Source: an uncultured Victivallales bacterium (GTDB lineage: Bacteria > Verrucomicrobiota > Lentisphaeria > Victivallales > UBA1829). From it: a stretch of DNA of 64,000 bases. Shown piece after piece: positions 33,754-42,934 of this stretch (within the stretch, counting starts at the first letter, position 1; each line of letters begins with the position of its first letter). A program made the translations under genes and the position numbers. Where the stretch lies: NCBI GenBank assembly GCA_944390795.1, contig CALXRI010000001.1, positions 1 to 64,000 of the forward strand, written 5' to 3'. The notes beneath the pieces were generated by a model. The model ran no database searches. It was given only the letters and a program-made list of their open reading frames with translations, and was not told the DNA's origin.

Positions 33754-34716
33754 TCAGTCGAAATGCGCCTGCGCAAAAGCGATCTTTTCCGCCGCGGAAG
33801 GCATTGCGGACGGAGGAAGGCTTTCAATCAGCTCCAGACGGGAACGCAGTCCGGCATGATTGGCGATCTGGATCCCGAGCCCGGGCCGGGCGTTGAGTTC
33901 CAGCAGAAGCGGCCCTTTCTCACGGTCGTTGACAATGTCCGCGCCGAAGTAGCCCAGTTTAATCATCTCCGCACAGCGCGCGGCAAGTTCGAGATGCCTG
34001 TCCCAGTCCGGTACAACCAGTTCGGAGAGCATCCGGCCGGTATCCGGGTGACGCGTGACCGGCTGGTCGAGCATGACAGCCTTGCGCGGTTTGCCGTTCC
34101 GGATGCTCAGACCGACACCCACCGCGCCCTGGTGCAGGTTCGCGCGCCCGTCTGAACGTCTGGTGGCCAACCGCATCATCGCCATGACGGGATATCCCCG
34201 GAACACGATGATCCGAATGTCCGGAACACCCTGGAAGCTGAAGTCCGAAAAAATCTCCGAAAAAGAGATGCACTCTTCAAAGAGCGCATAATCCACCTGT
34301 CCGCCCAGACTGTAAAGCCCGCTCAGAATGTTCGTGATATGCGAATAAATCTGCTGAAAACCGATGACGGAACCGTCCGCCTTCCGGAATTCCCCTCCGT
34401 CATGGCTCCTGATTACAAGAATGCCGCGCCCCCCGCTTCCATGTCCGGGCTTGATGACGAACCCGGGACTGTCCTGCGTCAGGCGCATGAAATTTTTCGC
34501 CTCATGCTGAAAACGAATCGCGCCGATCAGACCGGCGGTGGGGACGCCGGCCTTCAATGCCAGTTCCTTGGTGACAAGCTTGTCGTCGACCATCGGATAG
34601 TAGCGGCGCCTGTTATATGCGGCGATATAGTCGTGATTGCGCCGGTTCATGCCGAGAACACCCGCATTCCGCAGCGCGGCAGGCGAGGCGAAAGCGCTCA
34701 GGAGTGATCCGAACAT
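33754..34716 (-). CDS. ATP-grasp alpha-L-glutamate ligase-like protein
   Basis: The 320-residue protein belongs to the RimK-related ATP-grasp family that sits with a retropepsin-like protein and an inactive-transglutaminase membrane protein (sometimes annotated RloC or TIGR02291). Visible are the glycine-rich ATP loop in VIKPGHGSGGRGIL (near residue 90), the DIRIIVF strand and the metal-binding LLELNARPGLGIQ near 290. It probably ligates an amino acid to a peptide or metabolite; substrate unknown. The start at 34716 lies inside the end of the upstream gene (19-nt overlap), indicating coupling. Confidence 0.87.
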   Translation of the reverse strand: MFGSLLSAFASPAALRNAGVLGMNRRNHDYIAAYNRRRYYPMVDDKLVTKELALKAGVPTAGLIGAIRFQHEAKNFMRLTQDSPGFVIKPGHGSGGRGILVIRSHDGGEFRKADGSVIGFQQIYSHITNILSGLYSLGGQVDYALFEECISFSEIFSDFSFQGVPDIRIIVFRGYPVMAMMRLATRRSDGRANLHQGAVGVGLSIRNGKPRKAVMLDQPVTRHPDTGRMLSELVVPDWDRHLELAARCAEMIKLGYFGADIVNDREKGPLLLELNARPGLGIQIANHAGLRSRLELIESLPPSAMPSAAEKIAFAQAHFD

Positions 34717-36248
34717 GAAGACACCAGCGGTTTGAAGCGTTTCAATTCCGTCAGACGGTAGCCCGTATAGGTTCCGATCAGCAGAATCAATGCGAGAATC
34801 ACCAGATTGAACTCCTGGAACGTGAAAAAGAGATACTGAAGATAATCGTTGTTCAGAATGAAATAACAGGGAATGCACGCGGCCAGACTGACTGCAAGCT
34901 GCCGGAACATGGCGCCGGGACCGTCCTCCTCCCACACCATCGAGGCACGCTCAATTGTCCATGCCAGGATAATCAGCGGAAAAAACGTGATCGACTGTCC
35001 CTGTGTGAAACCGAATGCGTAGGAAAGCACGCTGATCGCCTTCATCAGCAGAATCACAATCACCACAACGGCGGAAATGCGCGGCACCATCAGGAGATTC
35101 ATATGCGTCAGCAGCGCACGCGCCGAAAGACCGACTGCCAGAATCAGGAGAAAGGCGATCAGACCCGCAGTCAGACCTGTTTCCAGAAACGCCAGCGCAA
35201 TCAGAACCGGCATGAACGTCCCCATGGACTGCAGCCCGATGATGTTGCGCACCACCACAATCAGAAGCACCGCCAGTGGAAGAAGCGCAAGGCGCTTGAA
35301 CACGTTCTGTTCCGAAATCGGCAGCTCATAACCGATGATGTCCATCAGCCACGAATGCTCAATGAAACTTCCCCGCAGACGGTTCAGGCCGGCCGCGCTG
35401 ATGTTGGTCTTCAAAGCGGAAAAGCGCAGTTTCGCCTGCCGCCCTCCGGAGAGCGCAAACAGCGGTTCATCGCCGCGCCGCAGCGGGATGAAATCCTTCT
35501 GCGTGCCGAGCGTGCCGGAAACCGGATCATACCTGTGATAGGTCCCGTCATAATAAACCTCCAGCATGAAACTTGGCGACTGGCGGCGGCGTTTGTCCGT
35601 CAGAAAAACCCCTTCCGCCTCCCGGGAGGCGATTTTTCTCATTGCCAGCAGATTCCGGACAACCTGAAGGAAAGGCGTCCCCTGACGCTTGTCCGCAAAC
35701 AGCACGGACACCGCCGGATTGTCCCCTTTCCGGATCTGTTTGAAAAGAGCGCTGACAAACTGCGGAATGGAAAGTTTTCCTTCAGGATCCACGCTCCGCA
35801 GCAGCTGTTCGGCGAACTGTTTCTGCCCGGATGGCCAGCGGGGACGTTCCGGCGCCTCCGGTTTCTCTTCGGCGGCCGTTCCCGCACCGCCGTCCGGAAT
35901 GAAGGATATCTGGCAGGAAAGCGACTGCGGACCGCTGCGTTCCGCACCCTCCCAGACGGAAAGAGTCCGTCCCCCATGTTCCTGAACGGAAAACGCATAT
36001 CCCGGCGTCTGACTTGTCACAACAAGGTAATATCCCGGAATTTCATAAGGCAGCGAAAGCCTTGCCGCAACAGGACCGCCGTTCGCCATGAAACGAACCC
36101 TGCATTCCATAACCCAGAGCTCCGCATTGACGGAACGCGAAAAGGAATAATGCAGCACGCAGATCTTGAATGCCGCAATCGCAGCGGCCAGCAGCACCAG
36201 AAGACCGGCAATCATGCAGATGCTCTTTCCCGGACGCGACATCATCAT
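34698..36248 (-). CDS. Inactive-transglutaminase/7TM membrane protein (RloB-like)
   Basis: The 516-residue protein has an N-terminal membrane anchor (about 10-30), a periplasmic region that includes a transglutaminase-like domain described in the family as inactive (about 160-300), and a C-terminal block of about seven membrane helices (about 318-500). This build matches the 7TM_transglut family. Homologues form a three-gene set with the ATP-grasp and retropepsin-like proteins, linked in some proteobacteria to osmotic stress tolerance. Start and stop overlap its neighbours, so the three genes form one tightly coupled operon. Confidence 0.85.
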   Translation of the reverse strand: MMMSRPGKSICMIAGLLVLLAAAIAAFKICVLHYSFSRSVNAELWVMECRVRFMANGGPVAARLSLPYEIPGYYLVVTSQTPGYAFSVQEHGGRTLSVWEGAERSGPQSLSCQISFIPDGGAGTAAEEKPEAPERPRWPSGQKQFAEQLLRSVDPEGKLSIPQFVSALFKQIRKGDNPAVSVLFADKRQGTPFLQVVRNLLAMRKIASREAEGVFLTDKRRRQSPSFMLEVYYDGTYHRYDPVSGTLGTQKDFIPLRRGDEPLFALSGGRQAKLRFSALKTNISAAGLNRLRGSFIEHSWLMDIIGYELPISEQNVFKRLALLPLAVLLIVVVRNIIGLQSMGTFMPVLIALAFLETGLTAGLIAFLLILAVGLSARALLTHMNLLMVPRISAVVVIVILLMKAISVLSYAFGFTQGQSITFFPLIILAWTIERASMVWEEDGPGAMFRQLAVSLAACIPCYFILNNDYLQYLFFTFQEFNLVILALILLIGTYTGYRLTELKRFKPLVSSCSDHS

Positions 36249-36754
36249 AACGCACCTGTCTGATTCCGCCGGGAGGGATCGACGGCCGCCATGCCGGAAA
36301 TGATGTTTCTGCCGATCAGAACCTGATAGCTGAAGTTTTTCCGGTTTGCCAGCGAAAACTCGCGTTCCATGGTCAGAGATCCGATCCGGACTGTCAGCAT
36401 GACAATATACCGCGTCTGCGATTTGCCGCCATGCCGGACAATGGAAGTCCGGCGTTTCAGCGGAAGTTCGTAGGAGTGTTCCTCGCCCGTGCCCCGCTGG
36501 CGGATCCTGAACGATACGAATTTCCCGCCGTCGCGCTGAATCAGGCGGATCCCCTCCGCATCAATGGACGAGGTATCCGCGCCGGTGTCGATCTTTGCGG
36601 GAAACGGCGACGCAAAAGGTGTCACAAATACAGGCTCCTCGATTCCGACAATTCCCAACGGAAGACTCCGAAGCGGATCCTCCGCACTGTGACAGGAGCA
36701 AAGAAGAAACGCGGAAACCGCACAGACCGGAATCAATAAGGAAAAAACTCTCAT
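36245..36754 (-). CDS. Retropepsin-like aspartic protease lipoprotein (Zn_protease/RloA-like family)
   Basis: A 169-residue exported protein with a signal peptide and lipobox ending LLCSC near residue 20. The catalytic motif DTGADTSS near residue 51 is the aspartic retropepsin signature; the family was formerly called ATP-dependent zinc protease. A second conserved GRNIISG motif near the C-terminus marks the family. Start 36754 is chosen because GGGGGGA lies upstream and it gives a proper signal peptide. It overlaps the 7TM gene by 4 nt (ATGA). Confidence 0.87.
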   Translation of the reverse strand: MRVFSLLIPVCAVSAFLLCSCHSAEDPLRSLPLGIVGIEEPVFVTPFASPFPAKIDTGADTSSIDAEGIRLIQRDGGKFVSFRIRQRGTGEEHSYELPLKRRTSIVRHGGKSQTRYIVMLTVRIGSLTMEREFSLANRKNFSYQVLIGRNIISGMAAVDPSRRNQTGAL

Positions 36755-36835
36755 CCCTGATCCCCCCTTTCCGAATGAATGATGTTTGAAAGTCAGCACT
36801 GCGATGCAGGACTCCGGAAGTCAGACAGACCTCCG

Positions 36836-37618
36836 TCAATCCGCCGCCTTTTCTCCCAGAGCCGAGGTGCCCGGATTCCATTCGAACTTGCAATCTTCGA
36901 TTTTCATTCTGCAGGTCAGAGGATGAATTGCGAATGTCTTTGCAATCAGGTAAGTCTTCGATCCCTCCGTAAAAACACTGGTCGGCATGGCCCTGACATC
37001 TGAACCGCTTTTGATGACCGTTCCTTCAATCAGCCGGAACCGCAGCTGTTCGCCCACATCCACATCCGCCAGCTGTCCGTTCGGCTTGAAAATGATGGCC
37101 CGGCAGACCTCCCGCGGTTCATCGTCATCCGATTCCGATATATTCTTAAGCGGACCGAGAGGAACATTGCTGATACTTTTCACAGCCTGTGTCGTTCCGC
37201 CGCTCCAGAGATTTTCCTCCCGGGCGAATTCCGGATCCGTCGTTCCGGAGGTGTGGGGAATCATGGCAATTCCCTTGTGCAGAACACTCCATTGCTCCCC
37301 GTCAATCCAGGTGTCGAAAAACCAGTCTCCGTTCGCATCCCTGTAAACAAGACACGGGCGGTAGACGCACGAATTCATGGAAAGGCGGATGCCGTTCCAG
37401 TCCTTTTCCGTCGGAAACACCACCGCGACGTAAGAATTGTTCGTCACGGCATAGGAGCGGGCGGCCTTGATTTTTGCGGCAAGCTCACGGGTGGAGCTTG
37501 TCATGGCGCCCCCCTTCATCATGACGGAGAACGCGGGAGTCGCAATCCCCAGAATGACGGCGGCAATCGCCACAACGACCAGGAGTTCCACTAAGGTGTA
37601 GCGATGAATTCTTCTCAT
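36836..37618 (-). CDS. Type II secretion/type IV pilin-like pseudopilin (GspH-like)
   Basis: The 260-residue protein has a prepilin leader with the processing region RYTLVELLVVVAIAAVILGI. The usual Gly before Phe is a Tyr-Thr pair here, a form common in Lentisphaerota. The long hydrophobic helix is followed by a beta-rich globular domain with four Cys. Such TLVELLVV pseudopilins are massively expanded in Victivallis and relatives, where their role is not known. GGAGAGGAG precedes the ATG. It has a strong promoter of its own and lies 81 bp upstream of the retropepsin gene. Confidence 0.87.
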   Translation of the reverse strand: MRRIHRYTLVELLVVVAIAAVILGIATPAFSVMMKGGAMTSSTRELAAKIKAARSYAVTNNSYVAVVFPTEKDWNGIRLSMNSCVYRPCLVYRDANGDWFFDTWIDGEQWSVLHKGIAMIPHTSGTTDPEFAREENLWSGGTTQAVKSISNVPLGPLKNISESDDDEPREVCRAIIFKPNGQLADVDVGEQLRFRLIEGTVIKSGSDVRAMPTSVFTEGSKTYLIAKTFAIHPLTCRMKIEDCKFEWNPGTSALGEKAAD

Positions 37619-37713: not shown

Positions 37714-37750
37714 AAAAAAAGCGGTCTCTCCGGGATGCGGAGAAACCGCT
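37714..37750 (-). terminator. Terminator of the sugar importer operon
   Basis: Minus-strand stem AGCGGTTTCTCC pairing with GGAGAGACCGCT, followed by a run of seven T, 26 bp after the MalG-type permease stop. Confidence 0.9.
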
Positions 37751-37775: not shown

Positions 37776-40100
37776 TCACTTTTCCGTCGGGACAACAATG
37801 CCCTTGATAATGATGTTCTGGCAGAAGACAAACACCAGAAGAGTCGGAATCGCGGCAATGATCAGCGCGGCGAACCCCACTGCCTGGCTCGAGCGGATCT
37901 GCAGCTGATACAGATGCACCATCATGGTCCACATGGATTTGTCCTGGCAGAGCAGAAACGCCATCATGAAGTTGCCGTATGCCAGCGTGAAGGTGTTCAG
38001 CGCAAGAACGGAAAGGATCGGCGTGGAAAGCCCCATGGCAATCTGCCAGAAGACCGTCCATTCACTTGCACCGTCAATTGCCGCGGATTCAAAAAGCTCC
38101 TTCGGCAGACTGTCGAAGAATCCTTTCAGAAGAAAGATCATGTAACCGTTCGCCATCGTCGGCAGAATCAGAGCTCCGAACGTGTTCAGAAGATTCAGAT
38201 TCTTGATCAGAAGGAACTGCGGAATTCCAAGCACCATCGGTGGAAATGCCATCGGAAGCATCAGAAACAGCAGGATCTTGTATGCGGGCGCCATTTTGTA
38301 GCGGGAGAGCGCATAAGCGCACAGCGGATTCACGATCAGCGCCGCAAGCACTGCAAGCGCACAGTAAATCAGCGTGTTCTTCGCGGCATTGCCGTTGGTG
38401 ATGATCGTATCAACCACCATGACATAATTCCGCTTCAGATATTCCTTTACAAGGTCCCACTTATGATCCAGAACGGAAAACCATTCATATTCCCGGATGG
38501 GAGGAGCGATTCTGTCCCAGGTCGTGTAGACCGTCCCCCAGGCATTGTTGACTGCGGCGACATCCTTGTATTTGTTTTTCAGGAACTTGTGCCAGAGCGG
38601 CTGCATTTTCGCAACATCCGCAATAAGACGGAGGTTGGCATGGGCGGGATCCTTCACAAATTCCTGGTAATGCTCCTTCACACTCATGCTGATGTCCGGA
38701 GACGCCGGATATTTGGAATGGAACGGAATCTCAAGTTTGCTCCTGATCGTGCTCTTGTAATCCATGGACATCTTCTTGTAATCCACGCTCTTGTCCGGCA
38801 GCATATATTTGCTTTCGATGAAATCACGGTAATCGGAAATAGCGGTTCGGACAAGGGAGATTTCCTCAGCGCCCATCGTATTGACGAATTCAGTCCAGTC
38901 TTTCGCCAGTGCCAGATTCTCCGCAGGATGCTCCTCGGGAAGCGGAATGGAATCAATGGACTTGTAACCCATGTCATACACATCGTTCAGGCGGGCAATC
39001 GTGCCGTATTTCTTTTTCAGCCAGTCACGGTATTCGCCTGCAAGTGTGTCAAGATGAATGTATTGCGGCGGAAGCACGAGAGAGACAAATTCGTTCCAGT
39101 CGGTCTTGAGCTGCCCGCTTTCCGGCTCCCTTGCCGGCAGTTTGATATCATCAAAAGTCTTGGCATTGCTTTCGTGAAGGGCATTGACCTCTTTGATGTC
39201 TTTATATTTCTCCCTGAGAAATTTGATCCAAAGCGGGGTGGCGGCAGAATCCAGACGCAGGAAAGCGTAGTTCACATCCTCACGGACATACTTGCTCCAC
39301 AGTTTGGTAAATTCACCCTTCCCTTTCGGATAGCTTCTGGGCAGGGCGATGTCAAGCCAGGAGTTGTATTTTGTCCCGAGCTTCCTGTTCAGATCGGTGA
39401 GATCCCGCGCAACATTCTTGCGCAGGCTGTCTACGAAAAATCCGTCAAGATCCACCCAGTATGTGTGAAGCCCGCTGATCTGGGTATTTTTGAATTCAAG
39501 AATTTCCTTGAGAATTCCCTTGCTGTAATCCGTTGAAATCTTCCTGGTATGAAAGCGTTCCACCGGAAGTCCGACGGCATCCCAGGAGGTGTAATCCGTG
39601 TCGCATGCCTCATTCAGCTTTTTGATCCCCTCTTCACCCTTGCCGTATTTTTTGGAGAGCCAGGTACGGAAATCGCGAAGCACCATTGGATAAACTCCGG
39701 TTTCGTTCGCCATGCCGATCCCGCGCCAGTAATGCGGTTTCCGCTCCTTCATCTCCGCAAGAAACGCCTTGTAGTCGTCAAATCTCACACGGGACGGGTT
39801 CTCGGGCTTCCGCACATTGTTCACGGCTCCGACTGGCTCCCGGAACGCGTTGAAAAACAGATTGTTCTGACCGTTGAATTTCGTTGCAAGATGTTTCTGA
39901 AACAGGAGTTCATGATTGTAAATGAACTCGGGCAGCAGGGAAAACTCCGAAAAGTCAACCTCGCTCTTGAAGGATCCGGAAACCATCAGGAGAAGCGGAT
40001 AAACCATCGTGACCGCTCCCAGAAGAAGCAGCACGTGAATTGAAATATTCAGAATCTTGACTTTCAGACTCTTTTTTTCTACTTTGCCGATAATAGCCAT
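37776..40100 (-). CDS. MalG-type ABC permease with a 515-residue repeat-bearing extracytoplasmic insertion
   Basis: The 774-residue protein is nearly three times the usual permease length. One membrane helix (about 20-42) is followed by a soluble region (about 50-565) in the loop between helices 1 and 2, where about 50 residues are normal. The rest is a normal MalG core with the EAA loop (ESAAIDGASEWTVFW near 680). The insertion holds six repeats of 65-80 residues starting near 143, 223, 290, 355, 422 and 501; most read FLxxKYxxIxxxN...YxSxDxIxLP. The motif resembles one found in GH42 beta-galactosidases. GGGGAAAT precedes the ATG; the previous gene ends 2 bp upstream. Confidence 0.9.
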   Translation of the reverse strand: MAIIGKVEKKSLKVKILNISIHVLLLLGAVTMVYPLLLMVSGSFKSEVDFSEFSLLPEFIYNHELLFQKHLATKFNGQNNLFFNAFREPVGAVNNVRKPENPSRVRFDDYKAFLAEMKERKPHYWRGIGMANETGVYPMVLRDFRTWLSKKYGKGEEGIKKLNEACDTDYTSWDAVGLPVERFHTRKISTDYSKGILKEILEFKNTQISGLHTYWVDLDGFFVDSLRKNVARDLTDLNRKLGTKYNSWLDIALPRSYPKGKGEFTKLWSKYVREDVNYAFLRLDSAATPLWIKFLREKYKDIKEVNALHESNAKTFDDIKLPAREPESGQLKTDWNEFVSLVLPPQYIHLDTLAGEYRDWLKKKYGTIARLNDVYDMGYKSIDSIPLPEEHPAENLALAKDWTEFVNTMGAEEISLVRTAISDYRDFIESKYMLPDKSVDYKKMSMDYKSTIRSKLEIPFHSKYPASPDISMSVKEHYQEFVKDPAHANLRLIADVAKMQPLWHKFLKNKYKDVAAVNNAWGTVYTTWDRIAPPIREYEWFSVLDHKWDLVKEYLKRNYVMVVDTIITNGNAAKNTLIYCALAVLAALIVNPLCAYALSRYKMAPAYKILLFLMLPMAFPPMVLGIPQFLLIKNLNLLNTFGALILPTMANGYMIFLLKGFFDSLPKELFESAAIDGASEWTVFWQIAMGLSTPILSVLALNTFTLAYGNFMMAFLLCQDKSMWTMMVHLYQLQIRSSQAVGFAALIIAAIPTLLVFVFCQNIIIKGIVVPTEK

Positions 40101-40102
40101 AA

Positions 40103-42682
40103 TTATTTCCCCGTAGTCTTGAATTCCATCTTGGAAAGTCTCTTGAGATTGTAAATGGTGAACAGCAGCGTCATCATTCCAAGCACCCACGCCATGGAAA
40201 TGGCGCTTCCGAACTGCAGATTCGTATAGGCTTCTTTGAAGATATGCAGCTCGGCCACTTCGGTATTCGCGCGCCCGAACGTCATAATAAGGATCATGCC
40301 TCCGGACTGCGCCGACGCAATAAAGGCTCCGACAAAGTTGATGATAATCAGGGCTTTCAGGGTCGGAAGCGTCACATGCCAGATTTTCTGGAAGAAGTTC
40401 GCCCCGTCGATCTCAGCCGCCTCGTAGGTCTCATCCGGGACACCCTTCAGCGCGGCCAGATAGATCAGACATCCGGGACCCGCGCCCGCCCAGATTGTCG
40501 GCAGCACGCATGCCATCATGGCCCATTTCGCATCGTTCAGCCAGTCCTGCGGCGTGAATTCCAGACCGATCAGTCCGGCAAGACTGTTGAGAGTCTGATT
40601 GAGGATTCCCGAAGATCCCGCCTGATAAAACAGCTTCCACATGAAAATCACGACAAGACCGCTCATCACCGCCGGCAGATAATAAAGCGTCCGGTAAACG
40701 ATTTTGCCGTGGGAAACCTCCTGAAGCAGAATCGCCAGAATAATCGGAGCGAGAAAACCTATGGTCAGAATGAACATCATATAGCGGAACGTATTCCAGA
40801 TTGCAGACCACCACTCATCGCTGAACAGAACCCCGGCAAGATTGTCAAATCCCACCCAGCGGCTGTCGCCTACCACGCGGTATTCCTGGAAAAACAGCTG
40901 CGAACCCGTTATCATGGGATAATATGTCCAGATCAGGATGCTTGCCAGTGCGGGGATCATGATCAGATACCCGGGCCAGTTCCGCCGGAAATCCCACCCG
41001 CGCTTTTTGCCTGAATAGGAATCCTTCGGCGAAAAGACCTTCCAGATATTGTAAATCACAAAACAGAAGAGACAGGCGATCAGAATCGCCACAACAACGG
41101 CAACCGTCGTGCGTTTCTGCTGTTCCTGCGGGGAAATATACCCGATCATCCGTTCATTGGTGCGGTTTTCCGCCTTCTTCAGAATATCCTGAAGGATCTG
41201 AATGCGTTTCTCCTTGATCTCGGGAGAATCGCCTTCCGGAAGTTTTCCGTCGCGGAAAAGCTGCATGGCCTCGTCCAGCGGCTGGGTCAGATAGATATAC
41301 ACCATCTGGCAGTTCCGTCCGTACGGTTCGGGCTTTCCATCCTTCAGCGCCTGATTGAACGCCTGCTCCCAGGACGGCGGAAAATATTTCAGGTATTCCG
41401 TATAGCCGAACTCCCGGAGATAAACCGGCGACAGGGAGCGTCCCTGACCGAGATTGACCATGGTTTCCGCGTAAATCTTACGCGCGGCCTTGGAATTCAT
41501 GAAACTGATGTATGCCCAGGCGGCATCCCGGATTTTCTCCGCCGGAACATATTTGCCCTCCGAATTGCTTCTGCCTGCAATGCCGGCAAAGATTCCGCTG
41601 AGCGTTGCATTGATCTCAGAGGCGCCCTTCCCCGAAGGACCGGCCGGAAACGGAGCAATGCCCACAAGCGCGGGATCGATATCCCCGCCCATCCGGTCGT
41701 CGCCCAGATACTGGGAATACATGCCGAGTTTTCCTGCCTGCTGGGCAAGTTTGACGGAACGTTCATCTGAATTCAACGTGGAATAGCCGTGCTGAATCGT
41801 GCCGTCGGAATCCTGCCAGCGCTCCGTTGCAAGACGCATGTAGAAATCCAGTGCCGTTGCCGCTTCCCGGGAACCGAACGCAGCCTTCCACTGCCCGGTT
41901 TTCGGATCCTTCACCACCGCATCCCCGCCGGCGCTCCAGAGATAAGACATGAAATCCCATGAGGAGGAAGCGCCGCTCGCCATGCTGATTCCGTATTTAT
42001 TGCGGGCCGGGTCGGAAATCCTCCGCGCGCATTCCAGAAGCTCGTCCCAGGTTCTCGGCGGCTTCTCCGGATCAAGCCCCGCATCCTGAAAGATGTCCTT
42101 CCGCCAGAACAGCGCCCGGACCAGAATTTTGCTTCCCACCGCCCAGACATGTTTTCCCGCCTGAAAACCGCCCACTGCGGGGCCGTCGCGGTAAACGATC
42201 GGACGAATTGCTGCTGGAAGACTCTTCAGAAAGTTGTCAATGCTTTTCAGCTCGGGGTCGTTTTCAATATATTTGTCGAGCGGCCAGAGGAAGTTCTGCT
42301 GAATATAGGTGTCAGACATGCGGAAGTTCACATTGATCACATCCGGAGCCGCACCGCCCGCGATCGCCAGCATCAGCCGGGACTCCATTCCGATATTCTG
42401 AATCTCAATTCCGCTGAACGGAGAAAGTTCAATATTCGGATGCAGTCTGCGGAATTCTCGAAGGATTTCCAGCTGGACTTTGGTATTGGGGTCCGTCGAC
42501 TTCGGGTCGGGAAGCGACATGACCCTCAGCGGTATCTTCAGAATCTTGCCTGGCGATGCGACCTTTGCGGAAGCCGGAGCGGCTTCCTTTTCGTCGGCGG
42601 CATTCAAGTCTGGAACAAACAGAAGGGATGCGGTTGCAGCAATCCCCGACAGCAGCGTTGCGAAAAAGACTCTGCGTTTCAT
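40103..42682 (-). CDS. Sugar-binding protein fused to MalF-type ABC permease
   Basis: One 859-residue chain combines two importer parts. A signal peptide (about 1-27) leads into a family-1 solute-binding domain (about 50-500, with RDGPAVGGFQ and AFWRKDIFQDAGLDPEKPP-like segments). Next come an extra membrane helix near 525-548 and then a MalF-type permease (about 570-859) with six helices and the EAA loop YEAAEIDGANFFQKI. The extra helix brings the chain back to the cytoplasm, so the topology is consistent. The binding protein is thus tethered to its own channel. No ATPase gene is nearby, so a shared MsmX-like one is presumed. Start 42682 gives a clean signal peptide; longer starts exist to 42763. 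Confidence 0.9.
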   Translation of the reverse strand: MKRRVFFATLLSGIAATASLLFVPDLNAADEKEAAPASAKVASPGKILKIPLRVMSLPDPKSTDPNTKVQLEILREFRRLHPNIELSPFSGIEIQNIGMESRLMLAIAGGAAPDVINVNFRMSDTYIQQNFLWPLDKYIENDPELKSIDNFLKSLPAAIRPIVYRDGPAVGGFQAGKHVWAVGSKILVRALFWRKDIFQDAGLDPEKPPRTWDELLECARRISDPARNKYGISMASGASSSWDFMSYLWSAGGDAVVKDPKTGQWKAAFGSREAATALDFYMRLATERWQDSDGTIQHGYSTLNSDERSVKLAQQAGKLGMYSQYLGDDRMGGDIDPALVGIAPFPAGPSGKGASEINATLSGIFAGIAGRSNSEGKYVPAEKIRDAAWAYISFMNSKAARKIYAETMVNLGQGRSLSPVYLREFGYTEYLKYFPPSWEQAFNQALKDGKPEPYGRNCQMVYIYLTQPLDEAMQLFRDGKLPEGDSPEIKEKRIQILQDILKKAENRTNERMIGYISPQEQQKRTTVAVVVAILIACLFCFVIYNIWKVFSPKDSYSGKKRGWDFRRNWPGYLIMIPALASILIWTYYPMITGSQLFFQEYRVVGDSRWVGFDNLAGVLFSDEWWSAIWNTFRYMMFILTIGFLAPIILAILLQEVSHGKIVYRTLYYLPAVMSGLVVIFMWKLFYQAGSSGILNQTLNSLAGLIGLEFTPQDWLNDAKWAMMACVLPTIWAGAGPGCLIYLAALKGVPDETYEAAEIDGANFFQKIWHVTLPTLKALIIINFVGAFIASAQSGGMILIMTFGRANTEVAELHIFKEAYTNLQFGSAISMAWVLGMMTLLFTIYNLKRLSKMEFKTTGK

Positions 42683-42934
42683 TTTATTGCCGGTCCCCAT
42701 GAACAATGGGGAATCTTGCCCCCGTACTGTTGCCCGCTGCAACTTTTCCGGAAGCCGTTTCATGTTGATTTTACGACAGGAGCAGCCAACTCCTCACCCA
42801 CCGGCCATGCGGAGAATACATAGCCTGAAAAGTTAAAAATAATACGGGTTCGGCATTTTACAAGCTTTTTCGTACCGGGAATCATGAAAAATACTGAAAA
42901 AACAAAGTATTTGGAGACAGAAAAATACAGAATA

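Follow-up and report, generated by a model that had tools for sequence, protein, structure and literature searches.

The window, a 64,000-nucleotide stretch from an uncultured Victivallales bacterium, holds a two-gene importer operon on its minus strand. The upstream gene encodes, in a single chain, a family-1-type binding protein, an extra transmembrane (TM) helix (residues 552–570) and a MalF-type permease. Its stop codon lies 2 bp from the start of the second gene, a MalG-type permease that opens with ATG at 40100 (MAIIGKVEKK...) and runs for 774 residues, so that the cognate MalF-type permease and a family-1-type binding protein are both encoded in the same operon. The features are as follows.

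40103..42763, minus strand: binding protein fused to MalF-type permease, 886 aa (SBP_bac_1, 94 bits, plus BPD_transp_1)
41054..41110, minus strand: extra TM helix, residues 552–570, a tether before MalF TM1 (hydropathy 2.98)
37776..40100, minus strand: MalG-type permease with solenoid insertion, 774 aa (Pfam, AlphaFold2, fold match to MalG)
39972..40067, minus strand: TM1, residues 12–43 (AlphaFold2 helix, hydropathy)
38388..39971, minus strand: predicted periplasmic insertion, residues 44–571 (AlphaFold2 model of residues 55–548)
39741..39917, minus strand: unit 0, residues 62–120, degenerate (hhalign 83–92% with units 3 and 6)
39525..39728, minus strand: unit 1, residues 125–192 (repeat HMM, hhalign, GH42 and GH14 structural match)
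39291..39488, minus strand: unit 2, residues 205–270, weaker (repeat HMM, hhalign)
39090..39278, minus strand: unit 3, residues 275–337 (repeat HMM, hhalign, 6ptm structural match)
38889..39083, minus strand: unit 4, residues 340–404, the best GH42-like unit (Pfam, repeat HMM, hhalign)
38679..38888, minus strand: unit 5, residues 405–474, degenerate core (repeat HMM, hhalign)
38451..38648, minus strand: unit 6, residues 485–550 (repeat HMM, hhalign)
37791..38387, minus strand: TM2–TM6 and coupling (EAA-type) loop ESAAIDGASEWTVF (BPD_transp_1, MalG fold)
37720..37750, minus strand: strong intrinsic terminator following the operon (13-bp stem, then T-run)

The two genes would form the membrane part of a CUT1-type importer, with carbohydrate as the putative substrate class. 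One OB_MalK match was found in the genome, on contig 14 and away from the pair. Since this single detected MalK-type ATPase is encoded elsewhere, the importer probably shares it. An in-frame TAG suspected in the MalF of three genomes proved, in the two that were read, to be just the terminal stop. Beyond the terminator, positions 36836–37618 (minus strand) of the window encode a pseudopilin-like protein with weak N_methyl and GspH matches, relatives of which also follow the importer in several related genomes; positions 33754–36799 (minus strand) encode a sugar-transfer-associated ATP-grasp protein, a 7TM inactive transglutaminase and a putative ATP-dependent zinc protease.

The first-pass annotation had described the second gene as a MalG-type permease whose first two membrane helices are separated by about 515 residues facing the periplasm, and each part of that description agrees with our results. 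Pfam places BPD_transp_1 at residues 607–767 (56 bits), and the protein superposes on E. coli MalG over 262 residues (VIA Z 20.2, RMSD 3.3 Å), with the six-TM MalG fold made up of TM1 from the N-terminus and TM2–6 from the part after the insertion. The closest equivalogs are MalG and UgpE, and the permease scores far below both cut-offs. In the AlphaFold2 model, TM1 spans residues ~12–43 and TM2 ~572–601, leaving ~528 residues in between (44–571). As the MalG topology has its N-terminus inside, the insertion would face the periplasm. An assembly join of two genes had been named as a possible source of the extra length; orthologues of identical length in independent genomes, with 96, 87 and 85% identity, rule this out.

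The insertion is built from repeats. A repeat HMM, seeded with the units from the window and then iterated over relatives, detected six units in the permease and, in several relatives, a degenerate unit at residues ~67–110. Profile-profile comparison gave 94–99% probability for nearly all pairs among units 1–6 (residues ~125–550), as expected of a genuine repeat array, and 83–92% for unit 0 against units 3 and 6. The six modules initially proposed are thus all present, and only their count has to be revised, to include a degenerate seventh at the N-terminus. The second and fifth modules, already suspected to be degenerate, have the lowest HMM scores (37 and 22 bits, vs. 49–63 for the others).

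AlphaFold2 predicted the whole permease with a mean pLDDT of 85.7 (29 homologues), and residues 55–548 alone with a mean pLDDT of 93.4 and a pTM of 0.87. The model is a regular α/β solenoid in which most units consist of a helix, a three-residue strand, two further helices and a loop, in keeping with the repeat fold expected from the sequence. A Foldseek search of the PDB with the insertion as a whole returned zero matches with E <0.001, a result that still leaves room for a missed fold. VIA matches with Z of at least 3 span one unit of the insertion or slightly more, and nearly all of those listed are glycoside hydrolases or a related glucosyltransferase. Single units match GH42 (6ptm, 5dfa, 3tts, 6y2k), GH14 β-amylase, GH50 and others, and superpose on 6ptm, 1ven, 5dfa and 3tts with Z of ~7–9; the match of unit 3 to the GH42 structure 6ptm covers 61 residues at 1.5 Å (Z 8.9). 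Middling VIA Z scores are common for helical repeats, and what gives these matches weight is that they share one enzyme class and agree with Pfam.

The resemblance to a helix-turn segment of GH42 β-galactosidases, noticed at first from the sequence alone, is borne out from three sides: by these single-unit matches, by Pfam, which finds Glyco_hydro_42 in four stretches of the insertion (82 bits against a cut-off of 21), and by profile alignment, in which units 1, 4 and 6 match the segment FREYLKRKF..LEAVNQAW in bona fide GH42 proteins from the same lineage with 86–89% probability. In GH42 and GH14 enzymes the matched segment directly follows strand 4 of the barrel, which carries the catalytic acid, and precedes strand 5. 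With such a Pfam score, one could read the insertion as an active glycosidase joined to the permease, and Glu133, close to the unit 1 strand, is conserved in the nearest relatives among the Lentisphaeria. The best stretch, however, covers only profile positions 144–253 of 376 and is present in repeated pieces, so that neither the Pfam coverage nor the AlphaFold2 solenoid contains a complete (β/α)8 barrel. The pair of catalytic glutamates on strands 4 and 7 is absent from the insertion, the model of which lacks the nucleophile strand and leaves Glu133 without a catalytic partner, and the PF08532 trimerisation domain, which a true GH42 control (L078) contains, is absent from the permease. Because barrel and nucleophile are both missing from the model, we take the insertion to be a non-enzyme, reject a working GH42 enzyme among the candidates and find the fused-glycosidase reading barely credible.

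The homologue search in Lentisphaerota that had been suggested revealed a widespread family rather than a singleton, with the insertion found in 81 of 338 genomes and 60 of 172 genera of the phylum that contains Lentisphaeria. Orthologues from Cloacimonadota align over the full length at ~40% identity, and a tree built from the C-terminal domain places them as one group (98/91) beside Lentisphaeria lineages. The alignment register is common to both phyla, and the array is therefore old, which rules out a recent tandem duplication. Family members differ in length by steps of ~70 residues (lengths of ~636, 774 and 845 aa correspond to roughly 5, 7 and 8 units), so units are apparently gained or lost whole. 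In the shorter members the units are more degenerate, and the HMM detects 3–5 of them. In one relative (L016, G006), in-frame TAG codons break the repeat-permease frame, which may reflect a pseudogene, an assembly error or readthrough. Between phyla the insertion is only 25% identical, vs. 67% for the MalG TM domain, making it the fastest-evolving part. Such low identity and the variable unit number are what a neutral expansion with no specific role might leave behind, but the register conserved across two phyla, the high model confidence and the recurrence with fused binding proteins described below make such an origin very doubtful.

We compared MalF/MalG pairs across loci of the Lentisphaeria-containing phylum and Cloacimonadota, using the length before MalG TM2 as the measure. 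Among 54 distinct fusions of binding protein and MalF whose MalG is adjacent, 53 pair with a MalG that has 309–644 residues before TM2. For unfused MalFs, the paired MalG has 60–175 residues there in 21 of 21 cases. The lone exception is L161, a fusion whose MalG has 167 residues before TM2. The Fisher p of 1e-17 for this association counts sequences, not evolutionary events. Fusions without an adjacent MalG have a match elsewhere in 10 of 11 genomes tested, nearly all of them long frames. BLAST divides the long inserts into two separate groups, 44 of a repeat kind and 9 of a repeat-less one. In a MalF tree, rooted for drawing only and with long branches that leave the deep order uncertain, the fusions make up about three lineages: the repeat kind forms one clade (100/99), a second lineage branches from within unfused systems (98/94), and the last is remote and contains L161. 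Pfam confirmed the fused binding proteins in members of each of the three.

The repeat-less MalG TM1–TM2 insert, of 260–350 residues, occurs at L066:6497-8248, L155-L158, L160, L162, L164 and L165, loci that are also paired with binding-protein–MalF fusions; those tested gave no Pfam match for this insert. Six unfused systems (L170, L172, L176, L178, L185 and L188) have a smaller MalG TM1–TM2 insert of ~110–125 residues, which BLAST divides into separate kinds. L067 and L068 are single proteins of ~680 aa, apparently with MalF- and MalG-type permeases in one chain.

Somewhat short of an even likelihood, in our estimation, is a convergent rule by which a MalG gains a large periplasmic TM1–TM2 arm once MalF has become a fusion with the binding protein. 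One lineage extends across the Lentisphaeria-containing phylum and Cloacimonadota, and its arm would be a multiplied post-acid segment of a glycosidase barrel, forming a solenoid with no whole-length PDB match.

What the arm does can be approached through the E. coli maltose importer. MalFGK2-E is likewise a CUT1-type importer with the MalG transmembrane fold, and one of its TM subunits bears a large periplasmic domain. There, however, the domain is the P2 loop of MalF, whereas here it lies in MalG between TM1 and TM2 and is a repeat solenoid of glycosidase-like units, and the binding protein is fused to MalF. The P2 loop interacts with MalE at all stages of its cycle, to judge from the entry for Daus 2009 in the reference list of PMC3328499. 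The partner MalF of the window lacks a P2 loop. Our preferred reading, which we hold to be about evenly balanced between right and wrong, is that the solenoid acts as an arm on which the tethered binding protein docks. This role differs from the candidate roles first suggested, namely binding polysaccharide, passing ligand to the channel or holding a degrading enzyme. With the binding protein covalently tethered to MalF through the extra TM helix, the solenoid would sit over the periplasmic mouth and hold or guide it, taking the role of the unrelated P2 loop, and the energy would come from the one MalK-type ATPase detected in the genome. We favor docking because inserts of two or more unrelated kinds recur with a tethered binding protein, and handling that protein is the simplest explanation. 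That the insertion folds confidently as a solenoid, with neither barrel nor catalytic pair, also argues for it. A further, suggestive point is that insertion distances correlate with binding-protein distances once the contribution of the TM domains is regressed out (partial Mantel, r=0.59), although phylogeny and rate effects are not fully removed and this makes it weak evidence. Docking is weakened by the association amounting to about three evolutionary events, with L161 as an exception, by a repeat number that ranges from ~5 to 8 while the binding protein is constant in size, and by unfused MalFs of the same phylum that have no P2 loop and manage without a long arm.

The main rival to docking of the tethered binding protein, and in our view an unlikely one, is a multivalent arm that binds glycans, capturing oligosaccharides and passing them to the tethered binding protein, and so offsets the lost pool of free binding protein. 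This would likewise account for the association with fusions, and it fits the likeness of the units to a segment near a glycosidase active site, the fast evolution of the insertion and the location of some paralogues near GH35, GH20, GH38 or GH42 genes. Most invariant residues, however, lie in the repeat core, not in an evident exposed site. The neighboring glycosidases are also inconsistent among loci, with none flanking the pair in the window or at the majority of Cloacimonadota loci, and we rejected a conserved glycosidase neighbor as a clue to the substrate. Solenoids commonly bind proteins, and the modular length of this one would also suit docking of some other protein of the periplasm or envelope, for instance a hydrolase or an outer-membrane porin, so that substrate is channeled; but across phyla the pair has no consistently conserved third gene as its neighbor, and the co-variation is with the binding protein, which leaves this third possibility improbable.

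Parts of this architecture have counterparts elsewhere. OpuA-type ABC importers with a fused binding domain likewise have a binding protein covalently tethered to a TM subunit, and a MalE–MalF fusion occurs in Bdellovibrio; we know of no description of a partner MalG arm for either. BceB/VraG-type ABC transporters also have a large extracytoplasmic insertion between TM helices, but belong to another transporter family with another role (peptide sensing and resistance). Among enzymes, the strand 4–5 segment of GH42 β-galactosidase and GH14 β-amylase superposes on single units, whereas here the segment occurs alone, in seven tandem copies, with no TIM barrel, catalytic pair or trimerisation domain.

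The transporter class itself is already known. The initial impression that no permease with such an insertion had been described held up in a literature search, which found no description of the MalG solenoid, of its likeness to a glycosidase segment or of the link to fused binding proteins; preprints and most subscription journals lay outside its scope. The operon represents a subclass of sugar importers, widespread and apparently undescribed, that combines a tethered binding protein with a modular permease arm, and the arm looks like a clear example of a repeat protein derived from a fragment of an enzyme barrel. The importer raises the question of how a binding protein tethered one-to-one operates without a free pool, and that question is now testable.
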